From positions 1 to 38,639 of IMG/VR virus record IMGVR_UViG_3300025154_000239: a DNA stretch of 38,639 nucleotides. The stretch is one strand, 5' to 3'. This stretch comes from a virus. Shown here in pieces: positions 18,810 to 33,358 of this stretch (positions are counted from its first letter, which is position 1; every line of letters starts with the position of its first letter). Position numbers and translations under genes: made by a program. The notes under the pieces were generated by a model. That model did no database searches, was not told where the DNA came from, and saw only the letters and a program-made list of their open reading frames with translations.

Positions 18810-19625
18810 CTAGACGGCATCTAACTCCCCATCTTGGAGGGATTGAATCCATACAACATCTTCGTTTGTTAAGCGGAACCATTCATTGTGATGTAGTTTA
18901 TTTCTAAACTGCTTATGTAGCCATTGTTCAGATCGAAGTCTGTTCGCTGCGTAGATAGTAGAGCGCAACGAAAGACCCGCCGCATTCATTGACGCAAGAT
19001 TAGCAAAGCGAGTTTGCACATTGTCAGTATGGCCTATTTTACATAAGCCGTTGTCCGCTTCAATTAGATAAACCCAACCAGCAACCGCGTCTGAATAATG
19101 ATCGTCATCGTCTGACGTTATTCTTTCAATTAATTCAGCCTTAGTTTCCTTTACGGTTTCCGATTTTTTCTCTTGAGGATAAGACTGTTTTATTTTATCA
19201 ACTTCTTCCAATCGGCTCTTTTCGCGCTCTATACATTCCGGTTTTCCGCATATTATTCTGTAATCTTTCCAACTGTCAACTGTGAAAGATTGGGAACAAT
19301 GCCTACAATGGCGCGTAAGATCATCGCCCCAATACTCCGATAGTTCAATGTCTATTGTTTCTTTGTGTGGACGATATTCGGTCATGCTCAAGAAAATATT
19401 ATCCAATTCATCTTTGGTTAATCTAGTCGGAATTAATACGCAATTATAACCACCGGCTCTCGACATGATAATTTTTTTGTGATTCTCTTTTGATCCACTC
19501 ACGACGTAGTTGGGGCGGATAATATAGGCGTTTGGCTCATTCCCCGTTTGTAGTCTAAATACTTTTTGCAACTTGTCTAATTCGTGCGACGCATAAGCCA
19601 TGAAAAGTAAATCGTTGGTTTCCAT
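18810..19625 (-). CDS. GIY-YIG (T5orf172/MUG113-type) nuclease-like protein
   Basis: The protein has 271 aa. Residues from about 183 to 270 form a GIY-YIG domain of the T5orf172/MUG113 type: WVYLIEADNGLCKIGHT, then TRFANLAS and RLRSEQWLHKQFRNK with the expected Arg/Glu region, ending in EWFRLTNEDVVWI. The N-terminal half has a Cys ribbon (HCRHCSQSF ... CGKPEC) and a coiled linker. Endonuclease activity is expected. It is expressed from a strong internal promoter through the attenuator-like leader at 19626-19744. Confidence 0.75.
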   Translation of the reverse strand: METNDLLFMAYASHELDKLQKVFRLQTGNEPNAYIIRPNYVVSGSKENHKKIIMSRAGGYNCVLIPTRLTKDELDNIFLSMTEYRPHKETIDIELSEYWGDDLTRHCRHCSQSFTVDSWKDYRIICGKPECIEREKSRLEEVDKIKQSYPQEKKSETVKETKAELIERITSDDDDHYSDAVAGWVYLIEADNGLCKIGHTDNVQTRFANLASMNAAGLSLRSTIYAANRLRSEQWLHKQFRNKLHHNEWFRLTNEDVVWIQSLQDGELDAV

Positions 19626-19718
19626 TTACGCTCCAAAAAAAAATACAGCCGGTGTCATCCATTTACCACACTGTCTAAGGTGAGGAGCTTGTGGATAACA
19701 TCGGCTATATTTCGGCAA
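19626..19718 (-). CDS. 30-codon leader ORF in the GIY-YIG attenuator
   Basis: It starts at TTG (19716-19718), with AAGGAG eight nucleotides upstream (19727-19732), and ends at TAA 19626-19628, directly before the GIY-YIG ATG. The product would begin MPKYSRCYPQAPHLRQCGKW. Translation would run through segments C, B and D of the leader and so could prevent terminator folding. A genuine peptide function is unproven. Confidence 0.4.
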   Translation of the reverse strand: MPKYSRCYPQAPHLRQCGKWMTPAVFFFGA

Positions 19719-19744
19719 ACAAAAAACTCCTTACACCTTAGACA
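19634..19744 (-). promoter_or_regulatory. Attenuator-like leader upstream of the GIY-YIG gene (A-C-B-D)
   Basis: Read on the minus strand: A is 19744-19727 and pairs with B, 19687-19672 (16 bp with a 2-nt bulge). C is 19710-19693 and pairs with D, 19660-19643 (18 positions: 15 Watson-Crick, two G-T, one mismatch). D is followed immediately by nine T residues and then GGAG. A:B and C:D interleave, so they cannot form as ordinary nested hairpins at once. C:D plus the T run is a complete intrinsic terminator. The layout matches the leader at 24788-24894. Confidence 0.75.
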
Positions 19745-19749
19745 AAATA

Positions 19750-19777
19750 AGTATAGCACATACCGCCTGTTTTGCAA
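19750..19777 (-). promoter_or_regulatory. Internal early promoter for the GIY-YIG leader
   Basis: Minus strand TTGCAA, 16 nt, TATACT. The -10 ends at 19750, and leader segment A starts after five more bases at 19744. Confidence 0.65.
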
Positions 19778-20619: not shown

Positions 20620-21695
20620 TGCTGCAGCTCCGCAATCAAGCTGTCGATATACGCCTTGACCTTTTCCAGCGCATCGATCACGTCCTCAACATTGTTGATA
20701 GGCGGGAGAGGCGGCTGGATAACAACAGGGTCATGCAGGACATAACTATTTGCCACATACCCTGCAAGCGGGTAGTCAATTTTTGCCCACCAGATACCCG
20801 CCAGGACAGTCCCGGTCACATTGATGCGCGTGCCGGTTGGCAGCGTCTGGATTATCGAGCCGCCAGTGGATGGCATGGCTCTGACGTTCAGGTTTACGGT
20901 CGTTTGTGCGTTTGTTTCTGGCATGGGTTCCTCTGTTGGTGGTTGAGCGACCACCGCGCCAAATAAAAGAGTAAAGTTTTCATCGCTGCAAATATTTACA
21001 TCCAAGTGTTTCTGCCAATAAGTAAGTTGGTCCAAGTAAGGAAACCAGGTCAACGCCTGCCACAGATTAACGGTTGTTACTCCGATTGGGTTGGGCGGCC
21101 AATAATTATTGATCTTCTCCATGATCTTGCGCAGGCTGGATACTGGAATTGTTGGGATCTCGCTATCCCACAACGCCCCCAAAGACATGATGTAATTCTG
21201 ATACCAGGTGAAAGACTTGACGTAGTAAGCACTCCAATATGGTGCGGTGTTGATCCATAGGTATGCTTTTGGGATGTAGGTATTAAGCACCCACCCGCCT
21301 GAATAATTGCCAACGATCTTATCGGGGAAGGCGTCCCGCATGTAAGAGAAAACAGCCTTATAAAAGGCGTTCAGGGTATCCGGTGAAATTACTGTACCAG
21401 AGTTGAAATACTTCGTCTCTTCAATGTCCACCCAGACCGAGAGGCAGTCGGGATATTCATTGACCAGAACCTCAAATAATTCACATTGTGATTTAACTGC
21501 CAGTCCGGGGTAGAAATAGAAATAAAAACCGAATGGCAGCCCCAGCTCCCGGCACCACTTGACGAAGGTTGGCAGCATGTCATCCTCTGAATGTGCCGCA
21601 CCCGCCCGGATGATCACACCATCAATGTCAAGCAGCTTGAATTTTTCGAGACTATAAGAATCTTGATATAAAGACAAATCCACAACTATCTTCAT
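20616..21695 (-). CDS. Endolysin: GH25 muramidase with SH3b domain
   Basis: The protein has 359 aa. Residues 1 to about 235 are a glycoside hydrolase family 25 lysozyme: the start VVDLSLYQ with D6, and the strand LSVWVDIEET with D90 and E92 as catalytic acids. Residues about 266-320 form a bacterial SH3 domain (LNVRAMPSTGG ... GYVANSYV) for wall binding, and the last 25 residues form an amphipathic helix. It cuts the glycan chain of peptidoglycan. I see no signal peptide, so a holin should be needed. It overlaps the HNH-AP2 gene by four bases. Confidence 0.9.
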   Translation of the reverse strand: MKIVVDLSLYQDSYSLEKFKLLDIDGVIIRAGAAHSEDDMLPTFVKWCRELGLPFGFYFYFYPGLAVKSQCELFEVLVNEYPDCLSVWVDIEETKYFNSGTVISPDTLNAFYKAVFSYMRDAFPDKIVGNYSGGWVLNTYIPKAYLWINTAPYWSAYYVKSFTWYQNYIMSLGALWDSEIPTIPVSSLRKIMEKINNYWPPNPIGVTTVNLWQALTWFPYLDQLTYWQKHLDVNICSDENFTLLFGAVVAQPPTEEPMPETNAQTTVNLNVRAMPSTGGSIIQTLPTGTRINVTGTVLAGIWWAKIDYPLAGYVANSYVLHDPVVIQPPLPPINNVEDVIDALEKVKAYIDSLIAELQQ

Positions 21696-22174
21696 CTATT
21701 ATCTCCAAAGTTTGTAATGGCAAACTCGCCGTGATTTTCTAAAGCATACTTGTCATAAGCTAACGCTGCTTCTTCTGCTGTATTAAAGTATCCAATAACT
21801 ATGTGCTTTCTTTTTTCCATTGTTTGAGCTAACCATCTTTTAACTCTTTTGGTTTTATTTGTAATATAAGTAACGCCTTTATAGCCGCTCGTGTTATTAT
21901 TTTGTTTGTCCCTATTTTTCATATTTTGTGAACCTGTACAAACCCTTAGATTTTCTCTTTGATTATCTAAAGTATTGTGATTAATATGATCTGTCTCCAT
22001 TCCTTTTGGAGTATTTACAATAACAGAGTGCATATAAATTCCTATATTGTTTCCTATACATCTTCGTGCATATTTACCATCACCACTCAAACACCATTTA
22101 TGTTGATTCAACTCTTCAAAATCTTCATCATCCACTATAGCCACCTTGCCCTGTGTCAGCGGTATTTCCTTCAT
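21692..22174 (-). CDS. HNH endonuclease with AP2 DNA-binding domain
   Basis: The protein has 160 aa from ATG 22172-22174, chosen for its GGAG six bases upstream. The HNH part (about residues 45-90) has ETDHINHNTLDNQRENLRVC. The C-terminal AP2 domain has SGYKGVTY and IGYFNTAEEAALAYDKYALE. This is a common free-standing phage homing nuclease. A TTG at 22240 would extend it in frame by 22 residues through the leader. It is AT-rich and inserted just before the endolysin, with which it overlaps. Confidence 0.88.
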   Translation of the reverse strand: MKEIPLTQGKVAIVDDEDFEELNQHKWCLSGDGKYARRCIGNNIGIYMHSVIVNTPKGMETDHINHNTLDNQRENLRVCTGSQNMKNRDKQNNNTSGYKGVTYITNKTKRVKRWLAQTMEKRKHIVIGYFNTAEEAALAYDKYALENHGEFAITNFGDNR

Positions 22175-22184
22175 GCTATTCTCC

Positions 22185-22263
22185 AATAGAAATCGCCCAA
22201 ACTGGCAGGGGAAGCTGCCAAATCTGGGCGATATTCTCAATAATTTGTTGGCTCTTCCCAGCC
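22185..22263 (-). promoter_or_regulatory. Structured leader upstream of HNH-endolysin (possible third A-C-B-D leader)
   Basis: Minus strand order: A 22263-22254 can pair with B 22214-22204 (about 9 bp with one mismatch and a bulge). C 22232-22225 (ATCGCCCA) pairs perfectly with D 22199-22192 (TGGGCGAT), followed by TTTCTATT and GGAG. An inner TGGCAG/CTGCCA hairpin (22203-22208 with 22215-22220) nests inside C:D and competes with A:B. The order matches the two stronger leaders, but the stems are shorter and the T run is weak. Confidence 0.5.
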
Positions 22264-22272
22264 GATGTTCTT

Positions 22273-23452: not shown

Positions 23453-24039
23453 TTGTTGCCTCCAAATTTATCCGCCAGCATTTTTATCTCTTTTTTGGTT
23501 TTTTCTTCCAACTCCCTGTTGTCATAGTCTGTCAATGCCGGATGCTCTGAGATGTCGGCTCGGATGCCATCCACTACCTCATCGTAGATCTTCAGGAACC
23601 TTGACCGGGCAAAGCTTTCCTGCCCGTTCTCAATATCCAGGCATATTTGCGGGAACCCGCCCATACGTCTCAGTGTCTCTCTCGTGGCTGGATGGTCCAG
23701 GATCGGAGAGCTTCCGCCGCCTGACAAATTACCGGCGGGCATGCGCACTATTGATTCTCTGCACTCCGCCCAAACCGCGCTGCCTGTCTCAAGTCCGGTA
23801 TTCTTTACGCGCATCCCGGCAACCTTGCCGCGTATTTCACCTGGGGATGGTGCGAAGGCGCGTCCACTTTCAAGACAGCAGGCTTTGACTGCGAGCTGCA
23901 ATTCCTGGTATGGTACATCGCCCAACAAATCCTCCAGTACGTCAATGGTAGTCAATCCACCTTCGATGATCGGGTTGTAGTTTGGAAATGCCAGTTTGAT
24001 ATATGCCACAATATTTGTTATGTCATTACGCGTTGCCAT
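23449..24039 (-). CDS. Helicase-loader-like replication protein (G39P type)
   Basis: The protein has 196 aa. Residues 1-75 have the compact helical pattern of the SPP1 G39P family: DITNIVAYIKLAFPNYNP, then VPYQELQLAVKACCLESGR and the loop FAPSPGEIRGKV. Such proteins deliver the replicative helicase to the initiator-bound origin. No phage helicase is visible, so a host DnaB-type helicase is the likely partner. It overlaps the replication-organiser gene by 14 nt. Confidence 0.72.
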   Translation of the reverse strand: MATRNDITNIVAYIKLAFPNYNPIIEGGLTTIDVLEDLLGDVPYQELQLAVKACCLESGRAFAPSPGEIRGKVAGMRVKNTGLETGSAVWAECRESIVRMPAGNLSGGGSSPILDHPATRETLRRMGGFPQICLDIENGQESFARSRFLKIYDEVVDGIRADISEHPALTDYDNRELEEKTKKEIKMLADKFGGNK

Positions 24040-24775
24040 CGATCACCTCCGGTATTCTAAGTTTATTAAGCTTTGTGAAAAAATCCTCGTTACTGTCTTT
24101 CTTTCCCGGCTTGCTCTGCCCCTGCTTCCAGTTCTTTGCAGCCGTCTCCATGCTATCCATTAGTCCCATGCGGTTGGTCATGTTGATCTCTTTCTTCTCA
24201 GCCCACTCTGCGATACGTTGCGCTTGCTCGAACCCGACCGATTCAACCAGGGCGATCCATCTCTTTTGTTCTCTCTGGTTATTGAAGTTCCCGAAGTGTG
24301 CAAAGAACTCAGCGTCCGTTGGGGATTTTGATGGCTTTGCATCTGCATTTGATTCTGATTGTGCATTTGATTCTGTATATGTATTTAAGGGTGAATTACT
24401 CTTGACTAACTCTGGAGTAGGTATGGAGTAGGTATCGAATGGTGCAGGTAGCAAGCTTGGAGCTTCTTTTTCAAAACCACGTTGGTACTCTTGAAACTTT
24501 ATAACCCAAAAGTACTGCCTGTTATCTACATCGTAGATGTTTACCATGCCCCTGGCCGCAAACCATTCCATGCCCGACGTGATTTGTACCTGGGTAACGT
24601 CCTCTCGTAGTGGAAATATTTTTGACTTGATCCAGGATGCGTTATAAATTCCCCTGCCTTCGCAGTCCAGCCCGAGAGGTAATAGAACCCACAACAAGCG
24701 GGTGAAGTCGTCCGGCATTTCGTTGAAATCGAATGACTGTGTTATCTTGGTGTGAATGGATCTGAATTTTGGCAT
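24026..24775 (-). CDS. Replication organiser / initiator-like protein
   Basis: The protein has 249 aa. ATG 24773-24775 was chosen over a GTG nine bases earlier because AAGGTGG then serves as ribosome site. The N-terminal half (FRSIHTKITQSFDFNEMPDD, LLWVLLPLGLDCEGRG, WIKSKIFPLREDVT) resembles winged-helix replisome organisers. A polar linker follows, with a helical C-terminal part. Binding the origin and recruiting the loader is the expected role. It lies behind the strongest promoter of the window and an attenuator-like leader. Confidence 0.7.
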   Translation of the reverse strand: MPKFRSIHTKITQSFDFNEMPDDFTRLLWVLLPLGLDCEGRGIYNASWIKSKIFPLREDVTQVQITSGMEWFAARGMVNIYDVDNRQYFWVIKFQEYQRGFEKEAPSLLPAPFDTYSIPTPELVKSNSPLNTYTESNAQSESNADAKPSKSPTDAEFFAHFGNFNNQREQKRWIALVESVGFEQAQRIAEWAEKKEINMTNRMGLMDSMETAAKNWKQGQSKPGKKDSNEDFFTKLNKLRIPEVIDGNA

Positions 24776-24787
24776 AAATACCACCTT

Positions 24788-24894
24788 GTAAAAAAGAAGC
24801 CCGCCTCAATGCTTTATTCCTTCGCTTGTCACAGTTCAGGCTTTGTCATTGGGGCGGGCGTCTTCGGAATAAAAAAAAGCCGGGAACTGTGACA
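24788..24894 (-). promoter_or_regulatory. Attenuator-like leader upstream of the replication genes (A-C-B-D with T run)
   Basis: Minus strand order: A 24894-24884, E 24873-24866, C 24859-24847, B 24837-24827, E' 24820-24813, D 24811-24799, then TTCTTTTTT. A is the exact complement of B (11 bp, extendable by GGCTTT/AAAGCC), E of E' (8 bp), and C of D (13 positions, one G-T). All three pairings cross each other, so they are alternatives. C:D with the T run is an intrinsic terminator. A six-codon ATG ORF (24849-24829) begins in C and stops in B, without a clear ribosome site. Confidence 0.82.
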
Positions 24895-24899
24895 TATTT

Positions 24900-24928
24900 A
24901 TTATATAGACTTCCCGCACCAATGTCAA
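24900..24928 (-). promoter_or_regulatory. Perfect consensus sigma-70 promoter for the replication block
   Basis: Minus strand TTGACA, 17 nt, TATAAT: both boxes and the spacer match the consensus exactly. The -10 ends at 24900, and leader segment A starts after five bases at 24894, so transcription should start at or within A. Confidence 0.92.
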
Positions 24929-24931
24929 GCA

Positions 24932-25690
24932 TCAAACCCCACAGATCCCAGAACATTCATTGTCCCATAGCGACAACTGCCCTTGCTCTTCTGGGGTGCG
25001 GAAGTCAATATCAACTAATGGTCTTCTGGAAGGGTGGACAAATATTCTATGAGGCGGACGACGGTTGCGCATCTGTTCATCAACTTCTAAAGCCCCTTTC
25101 CAATCTTCAGGAATTTGTTTAATGCGTCGCCACTCAGCCGTTGAATGGTAAGGGCAGAATATACAAGAAGATCTTGGAGGTTCCTCTAAATTATGATCTG
25201 CCAACCATTTTTTGCAATCCGATCTGCTCACACCATTGTCAATCAACGGGTAAACATTGGTTATATATTTGACATCGCTATCTCTCATGCGTTTGTATTC
25301 GTCTGTGGAAATACCGATCCATTGTTCAACTTTTTGACCTTTTCGGTTGGCTTGTATCCATCGTCTCATTGGATAAATTTTCCACTGCGATGTACACTGG
25401 CGCTTCCCCTGTCCGGCTTTTCCGCTTTTGGAAATGGAATAAAATGGCGGATCTTCTTGACCATATCCATTATCCAGCGGGTCACTATGCTTCGGTTTTA
25501 CTGTGACAACCCTTACGCCGTGTTCTTCCAGCCAGGGTGTCCACTTCTCGGCAAACCGATAAGTTAAGATGCTTTCGTGGGTTGTATCCGAATGGACAAC
25601 CGCATCAACCATAGGCAATTCTTTAAGCGCGACCATAGCTGCCAATGTAAAACTCTGTACTCCCCAACCAAGTGATAATATTTTCATCAA
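24932..25690 (-). CDS. PAPS-reductase-like PP-loop enzyme
   Basis: The protein has 252 aa. The N-terminal SLGWGVQSFTLAAMV is a variant PP-loop (adenine nucleotide alpha hydrolase/PAPS reductase type). VDAVVHSDTTHES follows as the second nucleotide strand. Cys residues at C99, C159, C176/C179 (CIFC) and C246/C250 could hold an Fe-S cluster or zinc. Phage proteins of this family are frequent but their substrate is often unknown; sulfur transfer to nucleic acid is one possibility. It overlaps the DUF5658-like gene by four bases. Confidence 0.72.
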   Translation of the reverse strand: MMKILSLGWGVQSFTLAAMVALKELPMVDAVVHSDTTHESILTYRFAEKWTPWLEEHGVRVVTVKPKHSDPLDNGYGQEDPPFYSISKSGKAGQGKRQCTSQWKIYPMRRWIQANRKGQKVEQWIGISTDEYKRMRDSDVKYITNVYPLIDNGVSRSDCKKWLADHNLEEPPRSSCIFCPYHSTAEWRRIKQIPEDWKGALEVDEQMRNRRPPHRIFVHPSRRPLVDIDFRTPEEQGQLSLWDNECSGICGV

Positions 25691-29662: not shown

Positions 29663-29965
29663 TTAGGCGTAGATACCTTCACCGGTCAAGAAATCGTGCT
29701 CATCCTGAGACATTGGCGCATCGTCAGAGTAATCAATTCCAGCCACTGGTTTCCGACCATGTTGTTTTTCGAAACTCAGCGGAAAACTTTTGATACCCTT
29801 CTCACTGATGGTTCCGACCAAAGGAATTTTAGCGATAAGCCATTCCTTTTCAATAAGGGTGCGGATAACCTCTGACATTGACATGCCTTTTTCTTCCGCC
29901 AATGTTTCCAATTTCGTCCTTACCTCACTGTCTGCCCTGAAAATAAATCTCTCATCTTTATTCAT
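29663..29965 (-). CDS. Ribbon-helix-helix (CopG/Arc-type) regulator, first early gene
   Basis: The protein has 100 aa. The N-terminus RFIFRADSEVRTKLETLAEE and MSMSEVIRTLIEKE is a textbook RHH domain: a beta strand that pairs in the dimer, then two helices. The C-terminal half is a variable effector-type tail. It would bind an operator as a dimer or tetramer. As the first gene behind the main leftward promoter, which carries palindromes, it probably represses its own operon. AAGGAGG precedes the start. Confidence 0.8.
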   Translation of the reverse strand: MNKDERFIFRADSEVRTKLETLAEEKGMSMSEVIRTLIEKEWLIAKIPLVGTISEKGIKSFPLSFEKQHGRKPVAGIDYSDDAPMSQDEHDFLTGEGIYA

Positions 29966-32015: not shown

Positions 32016-33358
32016 CAGACATCAGACCGCAGCCGCGCCAAGAAACCTTTTTATCCTCCCCAGCTGATATTGCTATTTTCGGAGGGTCGGCTGGCGGTGG
32101 AAAGACATGGGCATTATTGCTTGAACCATTGAGACACATAAACAATAAAGATTTTGGGGCAGTAATATTCCGGCGCACCATACCAGAGATCACCCACGAG
32201 GGCGCATTGTGGGATGAAGCAAAAAAGATATACCCATTGCTCAACGCAGATCCAAACGAGACAGCACGCCAATTCAAATTTCCTGGCGGGGCAAAGATCA
32301 CTTTCTCGCACATGCAGCGCGAGGATGACAAAGAGAGCTGGAAGTCATCCCAAATACCGTTGATCGAGTTTGACCAACTTGAGACATTTACAGCCTCGCA
32401 GTTCTTTTACATGCTATCTCGTAACCGTTCCATGTGTGGTGTGCGCCCATACATCAGAGCATCCGCAAACCCAGAGCCAGGCTGGTTGGCTGATTTTTTG
32501 AAGTGGTGGATTGGAGAAGATGGATATGCCATTCAGGAGCGATCCGGCGTGATACGTTGGATGGTGCGCGAGCATGACCGTATTTATTGGGCAGACGATG
32601 CAGAGAGTTTGCAGTCTGAACACCCAAACAGTACCCCCAAAAGTGTTACCTTTATTTTATCCACCGTGTATGACAATCAGACATTGTTGGATGCTGATCC
32701 AGGTTATCTCGCAAATCTACAGGCACTGGATAACATCGAGCGACAGCGTTTACTCGGTGATGGTAAGCGCGGTGGAAACTGGTTGATAAAACCGGCGGCG
32801 GGGAAACTATTTAATAAGGCGTGGTTTGAAATTGTTGATGCGGTTCCAGCGGGGGGGCGTGAGGTTCGTTTCTGGGATCTGGCAGCCACAGAAAAGAAAA
32901 CAAAATCACATGATCCAGATTTTACAGCATCCTGCAAGGGTAAGATACTGGACAAAATCACTTATATTTTAGATGCAACCGCCGAACAAATTGATCCGGC
33001 GCGGACTGACACAGACATGAAAAATACAGCCGGTCAAGACGGTAAAAACGTTGCGATCTGTTTTGAGATGGAGGGCGGAGCCAGTGGAAAACGGGACGCA
33101 AACTATATTGTGAAAATGCTGGCTGGGTATGATGTTCATGGCGTCTCACCGCAAGGTGACAAAATCACCCGCGCCAAACCTCTTGCATCTCAGGCGTTGG
33201 CTGGAAATGTAAAACTATTGCGGGGGGAGTGGAATGAGCGCTGGCTAAACCACATGCACGGACAACCAGACTTGCCGCATGATGATGAGATGGATGCGGC
33301 CAGTGGGATGTATAATGAGTTATCAGAGGAAGTTTTTGAGATCCTATTTGGAGCGTAA
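32012..33358 (+). CDS. terL: Terminase large subunit
   Basis: The protein has 448 aa. The Walker A motif is GGSAGGGKT (G24-T32), the Walker B region is PLIEFDQLETF (about residues 115-125), and the C-terminal RNase-H-like nuclease begins at EVRFWDLAAT with its first acidic residue (about 287). It is the ATP-driven motor and nuclease that packages DNA into the procapsid. The stop is two bases before the portal start. Confidence 0.93.
   Translation: MTDIRPQPRQETFLSSPADIAIFGGSAGGGKTWALLLEPLRHINNKDFGAVIFRRTIPEITHEGALWDEAKKIYPLLNADPNETARQFKFPGGAKITFSHMQREDDKESWKSSQIPLIEFDQLETFTASQFFYMLSRNRSMCGVRPYIRASANPEPGWLADFLKWWIGEDGYAIQERSGVIRWMVREHDRIYWADDAESLQSEHPNSTPKSVTFILSTVYDNQTLLDADPGYLANLQALDNIERQRLLGDGKRGGNWLIKPAAGKLFNKAWFEIVDAVPAGGREVRFWDLAATEKKTKSHDPDFTASCKGKILDKITYILDATAEQIDPARTDTDMKNTAGQDGKNVAICFEMEGGASGKRDANYIVKMLAGYDVHGVSPQGDKITRAKPLASQALAGNVKLLRGEWNERWLNHMHGQPDLPHDDEMDAASGMYNELSEEVFEILFGA

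Follow-up and report, generated by a model that had tools for sequence, protein, structure and literature searches.

A consensus promoter and a structured leader at the replication-initiation gene

The window, i.e., the whole 38,639-nt stretch of IMG/VR virus record IMGVR_UViG_3300025154_000239 that was analyzed, encodes a replication-initiation protein on its minus strand (24026..24775; phrog_16167, phrog_1408), and the Shine-Dalgarno (SD) sequence of this gene, AAGGTGG (24781..24787, -), is identical in a related phage locus, L002. The ATG lies 125 nt from a promoter that directly follows the stop codon of a phosphoadenosine-phosphosulfate-reductase-like gene (24932-25690). A promoter scan and a count of exact matches placed the -35 hexamer, TTGACA, at 24923..24928 (-) and the -10 hexamer, TATAAT, at 24900..24905 (-), with a spacer of 17 bp. 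An earlier note on this DNA had described an exact-consensus promoter here, and TTGACA-17-TATAAT at 24928-24900 (-) is indeed the only place in the window where both hexamers match exactly at a spacing of 15-19, against 0.03 expected by chance (shuffles); it scores 12/12 in the promoter scan. Transcription would be expected to start near 24894 (-). A second, near-consensus promoter, TTGACT-17-TATAAT, occurs at 30015-29987 (-) and is followed by the gene of a small Arc/CopG-like repressor (29663-29965); no crossing leader was found at that promoter.

The leader is ~105 nt long, and its helix arms follow one another in the order A-F-E-C-F'-A'-E'-D, succeeded by a U-tract, the SD, and the ATG. 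Arm A (TGTCACAGTTC, 24884..24894, -), the putative 5' end of the RNA, pairs over 11 bp with A' (GAACTGTGACA, 24827..24837, -). This helix is extended inward by 6 bp between F (GGCTTT, 24876..24881, -), which is followed by a U-run, and F' (AAAGCC, 24839..24844, -), a helix absent from the earlier list of pairings. E (TTTATTCC, 24866..24873, -) pairs over 8 bp with E' (GGAATAAA, 24813..24820, -). C (GCCCGCCCCAATG, 24847..24859, -) and D (CATTGAGGCGGGC, 24799..24811, -) match over 13 positions with one C.A mismatch, and D is directly followed by the U-tract, TTCTTTTTT (24790..24798, -). A and F thereby form a single long hairpin, hereafter A/F, whose loop holds E and C, while E' and D come after it. 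A:A', E:E', and C:D are mutually crossing (order A E C A' E' D), and A, A', F, and F' have no base in common with C or D.

With its G+C-rich stem and subsequent U-tract, C:D has the makeup of an intrinsic terminator, C being the 5' arm and D the 3' arm. It was absent from a loop-limited terminator scan of this strand because its 35-nt loop is far longer than usual. The sequence thus bears out the earlier description of a 13-position terminator stem and T run, and of a maximal promoter directly upstream of this built-in terminator and the replication-initiation gene. Folding of the leader was beaten by only 1 of 200 shuffles, the crossing of A:A' and C:D with the U-run scored 57 in the scanner described below, and in this copy alone the F and E matches gave shuffle p-values of ~0.015 and ~0.017, respectively. 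Conservation in relatives is stronger evidence for the crossing helices than these scores. The leader also contains a six-codon ORF, MTKPEL-stop (ATG ACA AAG CCT GAA CTG TGA; 24829..24849, -), which, as had been noted, runs from a start in C to a stop in A' (there called B); it is without conservation among relatives. By inspection, short frames whose start and stop are similarly placed are present in some copies and absent from others, with no evident SD, and the ORF is probably incidental.

A second leader and a candidate third in the window

We searched for the layout, A:A' crossing C:D before a U-run, with a scanner that returned one match scoring at least 54 and none scoring at least 60 in 5.24 Mb of first-order Markov-shuffled DNA. 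Within the window it detected a second copy (19642..19750, -) with a score of 67, exceeding every shuffled match. The earlier note had mentioned neither this copy nor recurrence of the leader as a module. On the minus strand, A (TGTCTAAGGTG, 19744-19734) pairs with A' (CACCTTAGACA, 19682-19672), F (AGGAG) with F' (CTCCT, 19687-19683), and E (TTTGCC) with E' (GGTAAA, 19667-19662), while C (AATATAGCCGATGTTATCCA, 19711-19692) and D (19661-19642) are the terminator arms, with a U-run next. The E:E' helix (6 bp) was read by hand, the scanner having extended A' across it. The gene that follows (18810..19625, -) encodes a 271-aa T5orf172/MUG113 (GIY-YIG-like) protein. The 14 bases ACCGGCTGTATTTT, comprising arm D and the U-run of this copy, occur again at 33021-33034 on the minus strand, in the terminase gene region.

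A candidate third leader (22176..22272, -) is preceded by the promoter TTGAAA-17-TAGAAT and followed by an HNH_3 + AP2 endonuclease gene (21692..22173, -). The loop of its 5' hairpin, GGGAAG, is exactly complementary to that of a terminator-like hairpin, CTTCCC, a match that is weak taken alone. Leaders with such complementary (kissing) loops showed no clear enrichment as a class (10 of 1313 real vs 12 of 2701 shuffled terminators), and the candidate was left out of the copy count because loop matches are not clearly enriched generally. Its 5' hairpin (22269-22260, -) and arm C of the second leader (19707-19698) share 10 bases of perfect complementarity, AGCCGATGTT/AACATCGGCT, for which we estimate ~0.02 expected per leader pair. 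At locus L115 (1630-1535, -), the loop of a terminator hairpin, GCTGCATC, likewise faces that of a hairpin upstream, GATGCAGA; the ORF that follows begins MPYSKKYIRERIF and lies near an integrase gene.

Recurrence in related phage contigs

Outside the window, close copies number six, spread over five other phage contigs, and there are looser variants as well. The scanner recovered those at L002 and L003, whole contigs of relatives yielded that at L085, and a pattern scan combined with whole contigs yielded L162, L163, L165, and the looser L167. The eight core copies are thus the two of the window and those at loci L002, L003, L085 (6499-6609), L162 (=L105), L163, and L165 (=L106). L002 and L003 have the same layout as window copy 1 with other stem letters. 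In all eight, a U-rich stretch follows D and a start codon lies within ~25 nt. Copies were selected without regard to downstream genes, and we state the association by listing those genes. A replication initiator follows in three cases (window copy 1; L002, directly; L003, after a 64-aa ORF) and an HNH or GIY-YIG endonuclease in four (window copy 2; L085, HNH; L162, GIY-YIG; L163, HNH_3+AP2, where the copy sits among structural genes), the latter calls being based on Pfam/PHROGs. At L165 it is a truncated frame that, by eye, begins like an HNH-AP2 protein. A regular-expression test for endonuclease genes behind the copies, which missed several true endonucleases and internal starts, gave no significant enrichment.

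Among the looser copies, that at L167 (=L109) stands before a GIY-YIG gene overlapping a DUF1376/primosomal protein gene, and these two genes (2284-2643 and 1532-2287 in L109, -) share the one upstream crossing leader. At L085 5185-5294 (+), the terminator hairpin is long, with A' in its apical loop and an extra stem, TGCCAGTG/CACTGGCA; this variant precedes a 48-aa ORF and then a gene with a zinc-finger, primase-like start. The variant at L171 4778-4877 precedes an Imm5-like gene.

The replication proteins of the window (24775-24026), L002 (2584-3327), and L003/L072 (13085-13900) share their C-terminal part. The L002 protein is 94% identical to the window protein over residues 145-252, matching in the C-terminal part only, and the L003 protein is 70% identical to it over residues 113-251. 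Around the SD, TTTTTACAAGGTGGTATTTATG is identical in the window and L002, and the coding sequences diverge immediately after the ATG.

Between window copy 1 and L002, with helix registers set by hand, 13 pairs have changed on both sides (A, 2; F, 3; E, 3; C, 5), one pair differs in pairing state, the mismatch being that of the window copy, and almost no difference is seen in the promoter and SD stretches. Other copy pairs likewise keep their helices despite changes in letters. The third crossing pair of 8 bp, E/E', which had been proposed from the window alone, therefore holds up, since compensatory changes in relatives preserve the pairing. E:E' can be drawn in seven of the eight core copies (L003 is without it) and beat shuffles in five of the six testable copies (p = 0.017, 0.0005, 0.021, 0.007, and 0.002), the value for L163 being 0.13. 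Non-Watson-Crick pairs read on the sense strand comprised 23 G.U vs 2 A.C, a count somewhat biased in that the scanner penalizes A.C.

A comparison of folding energies among the alternatives, as had been suggested, was run on the eight copies. For ensembles with A:A' or C:D forced (nested folding), the S2-S1 differences were -1.4, -4.5, -6.4, +0.9, +3.3, -0.7, +0.9, and -3.9 kcal/mol, so that hairpin A/F and C:D are close (-6.4 to +3.3 kcal/mol) by Vienna energies, which ignore pseudoknots. The energies of the two crossing folds correlate (r = 0.86, permutation p = 0.003, n = 8), a relation that drops to a partial r of 0.51 once GC count and length are removed.

Searches beyond the known relatives

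A TGTCACAG/CTGTGACA motif is common to several copies. The exact seed TGTCACAG..CTGTGACAAG..TTTT was found in eight stretches of IMG/VR, five of which are these leaders; being drawn from known copies, it cannot find seedless ones such as 19642-19750 and L003. In one genome per bacterial or archaeal species, the same seed gave 26 stretches and no real copy. Many of the 26 are a dispersed inverted repeat of rhizobial and Agrobacterium genomes, TCATTCCTGTGCTTGTCACAGGAATCCA...GATTCCTGTGACAAGCACAGGAATGA with TGTCACAG inside, which is apparently unrelated to the leaders (carriers: L136, L137, L140-L142, L145, L146, L148, L150-L154, and L156-L159). Near and distant searches of cultured-phage DNA with the copy 1 leader returned nothing, and searches with two other copies returned chance matches only. 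Neither ten HNH loci from cultured phages nor the viral-contig relatives of the L163 HNH gene yielded a new copy. Rfam (IsrK, C4, riboswitches, and others) gave no family above the gathering threshold and two matches at chance level only. At the sensitivity tried, the leader has so far been found only in IMG/VR phage contigs.

Several candidate functions were dropped. A ribozyme lacked a conserved core and a leader peptide a conserved ORF. Sequestration of the SD by F' was rejected as a general rule, as significant SD pairing occurred only in L106 (9 bp).

A proposed cis-acting pseudoknotted attenuator

The sequences themselves show the promoter, the crossing helices and the compensatory changes that conserve them, the U-tract, the SD, and the order of the genes. 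In related phages, RNAs of this layout recur ahead of genes for replication and for DNA-cutting enzymes, which points to a reusable RNA control device. With little more than even confidence, we interpret the leader as a cis-acting pseudoknotted transcription attenuator that would set the level of read-through from a strong promoter. RNA polymerase would start at the near-maximal promoter, and the first ~65 nt would fold into the long hairpin A/F with C in its loop. E' and D would then emerge, and D would have to reach C inside that loop for the intrinsic terminator to form. Termination would be set by how the entangled hairpin and terminator resolve, some transcripts stopping as a knotted RNA of ~105 nt and the rest continuing into the replication or endonuclease gene. 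In this reading, C:D would act as the terminator, A/F would counter or shape it, and the amount of read-through would be limiting.

Should A/F and C:D prove mutually exclusive, the hairpin would be an antiterminator by topology, though without a base in common with the terminator. Such antitermination, which the earlier note had suggested, is plausible given that the predicted energies of A/F and C:D are close and that A/F would be complete before D is transcribed. Having no base in common, A:A' and C:D might also form together as a pseudoknot. With helices as drawn by the scanner, a spacer of 4-19 nt separates A' from D, and the A/F stem is ~16-22 bp. As this spacer is short in several copies and D is tied to the polymerase, opening of A/F is perhaps needed for C:D; on this geometric, uncomputed argument, a complete C:D may require it at least in L003. 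On the other side, the junction of a few nucleotides between C and F' resembles that of an H-type pseudoknot whose two stems stack, and E:E' could bridge them. Under antitermination and co-folding alike, formation of C:D, and hence read-through, would depend on A/F. No aptamer or ligand was recognized in the leader, and one shared trans regulator is not evident because the window's two copies have unlike stems. A narrower form of the attenuator, to which we give only tentative and rather doubtful credence, is a switch in which the terminator's 5' arm is trapped in the loop of the early A/F hairpin, and the 3' arm, still bound to the polymerase, is unable to pass through that loop. The leader would then be a portable phage module in which RNA topology and folding time decide the outcome, and, with similar doubt, an antiterminator having no base in common with its terminator.

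An unlikely alternative is that the functional product is the terminated RNA of ~105 nt, which would, like IsrK of Gifsy-1 or the RNA of the P4 CI system, act in trans, pairing with the leaders of other transcripts, whether nascent or reading through, and thereby setting expression, copy number, or superinfection immunity. The leaders of the window, L002, and L003 do differ in their stems while the replication proteins share a C-terminal part, the promoter and SD of copy 1 and L002 are nearly identical, as expected if stems carry specificity, and IsrK is a phage RNA from a leaky terminator that acts in trans (PMC4825925). However, each segment has its partner in the same RNA, an exact-match search of the window for a separate target site turned up no more than a few matches of 11-14 nt, near the chance level, and copies upstream of endonuclease genes fit immunity poorly. 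Less probable again is that all three helices coexist as a compact ABCABC pseudoknot (pseudotrefoil) that protects the RNA or binds a protein, as a decoy or type III antitoxin-like RNA, with the downstream gene fed by leakage. In the seven copies where it can be drawn, E:E' links the two loops that would cross the other stems, the short C-F' junction is H-type-like, and the class is known, if uncommon (51 sequences; PMC3390330). Against this, L003 has no E:E' and an A'-D gap of 5 nt, too short to span a stem of ~20 bp, and the variable downstream genes, none of a toxin family, argue against an antitoxin-like role.

It is very improbable that the inverted repeats act as DNA (a cruciform, operator, or origin). 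The adjoining replication-initiation gene and the TGTCACAG/CTGTGACA motif would suit such a role, but the stem letters vary with compensation, the sense strand favors G.U over A.C, and endonuclease genes also follow copies, one of them among structural genes (L163). Although C:D and its U-tract would be acceptable alone as an ordinary insulating terminator between operons, with the other complementarities due to chance, this reading is hardly tenable given eight copies of the layout with compensatory changes, the scanner null, and a promoter directly upstream with no intervening gene.

If the pseudoknotted attenuator is correct, a small, sequence-flexible phage RNA device would couple a maximal promoter to limited or switchable output through knotting of a terminator. 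Such a device might account for low levels of replication initiators, and of endonucleases that may be costly, despite strong promoters. It would further offer a clean case for whether topology alone blocks a terminator, and a natural part that is compact and exists in many independent versions.

Comparison with known systems

In a classical terminator/antiterminator attenuator, the two folds share a strand. Like the riboswitch and ribosomal-protein leaders of this kind, the present leader lies between a promoter and a gene and has alternative folds and a U-tract; unlike them, its A:A' and C:D helices cross without a shared base. The P4 CI and P1 C4 RNAs are processed and act in trans on separate target segments. 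Their leaders resemble ours in having a promoter and complementary segments and in terminating early, as is predicted for ours, ahead of phage genes (in P4, those for replication), whereas here no separate target was found in the window and Rfam gave no C4 match. Type III toxin-antitoxin loci have an endoribonuclease toxin gene downstream, and the genes behind these leaders are mostly those of replication proteins or HNH/GIY-YIG endonucleases.

The put RNA of HK022 suppresses pausing and termination through an action on RNA polymerase (PMC9378689), and is similarly an RNA in an early phage transcript that controls termination; the leader described here differs in having its own terminator and crossing pairs. 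In T4, endonuclease genes are held down by RNA hairpins over the ribosome-binding site (PMC2988022). Structured RNA before phage HNH and GIY-YIG endonuclease genes is common to both cases, but here a terminator lies upstream of an SD that is generally free. The ABCABC pseudoknots (PMC3390330) have the order A E C A' E' C' with three mutually crossing helices, and this order and complementarity were found in seven of the eight core copies, L003 being the exception; in contrast, one helix here is a predicted terminator, and joint formation of the three is putative. IsrK of the Salmonella prophage Gifsy-1 has nearly isoenergetic alternative folds of -85.7 and -84.2 kcal/mol (PMC4825925). It shares with the leader a phage promoter, two near-equal folds, and, as predicted for the leader, a small RNA with a leaky terminator and a read-through message. 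It differs in regulating a downstream ORF in trans at the level of translation, and the leader has no Rfam match. As a phage RNA that combines a leaky terminator with two folds of similar energy, IsrK is the nearest worked example that we found.
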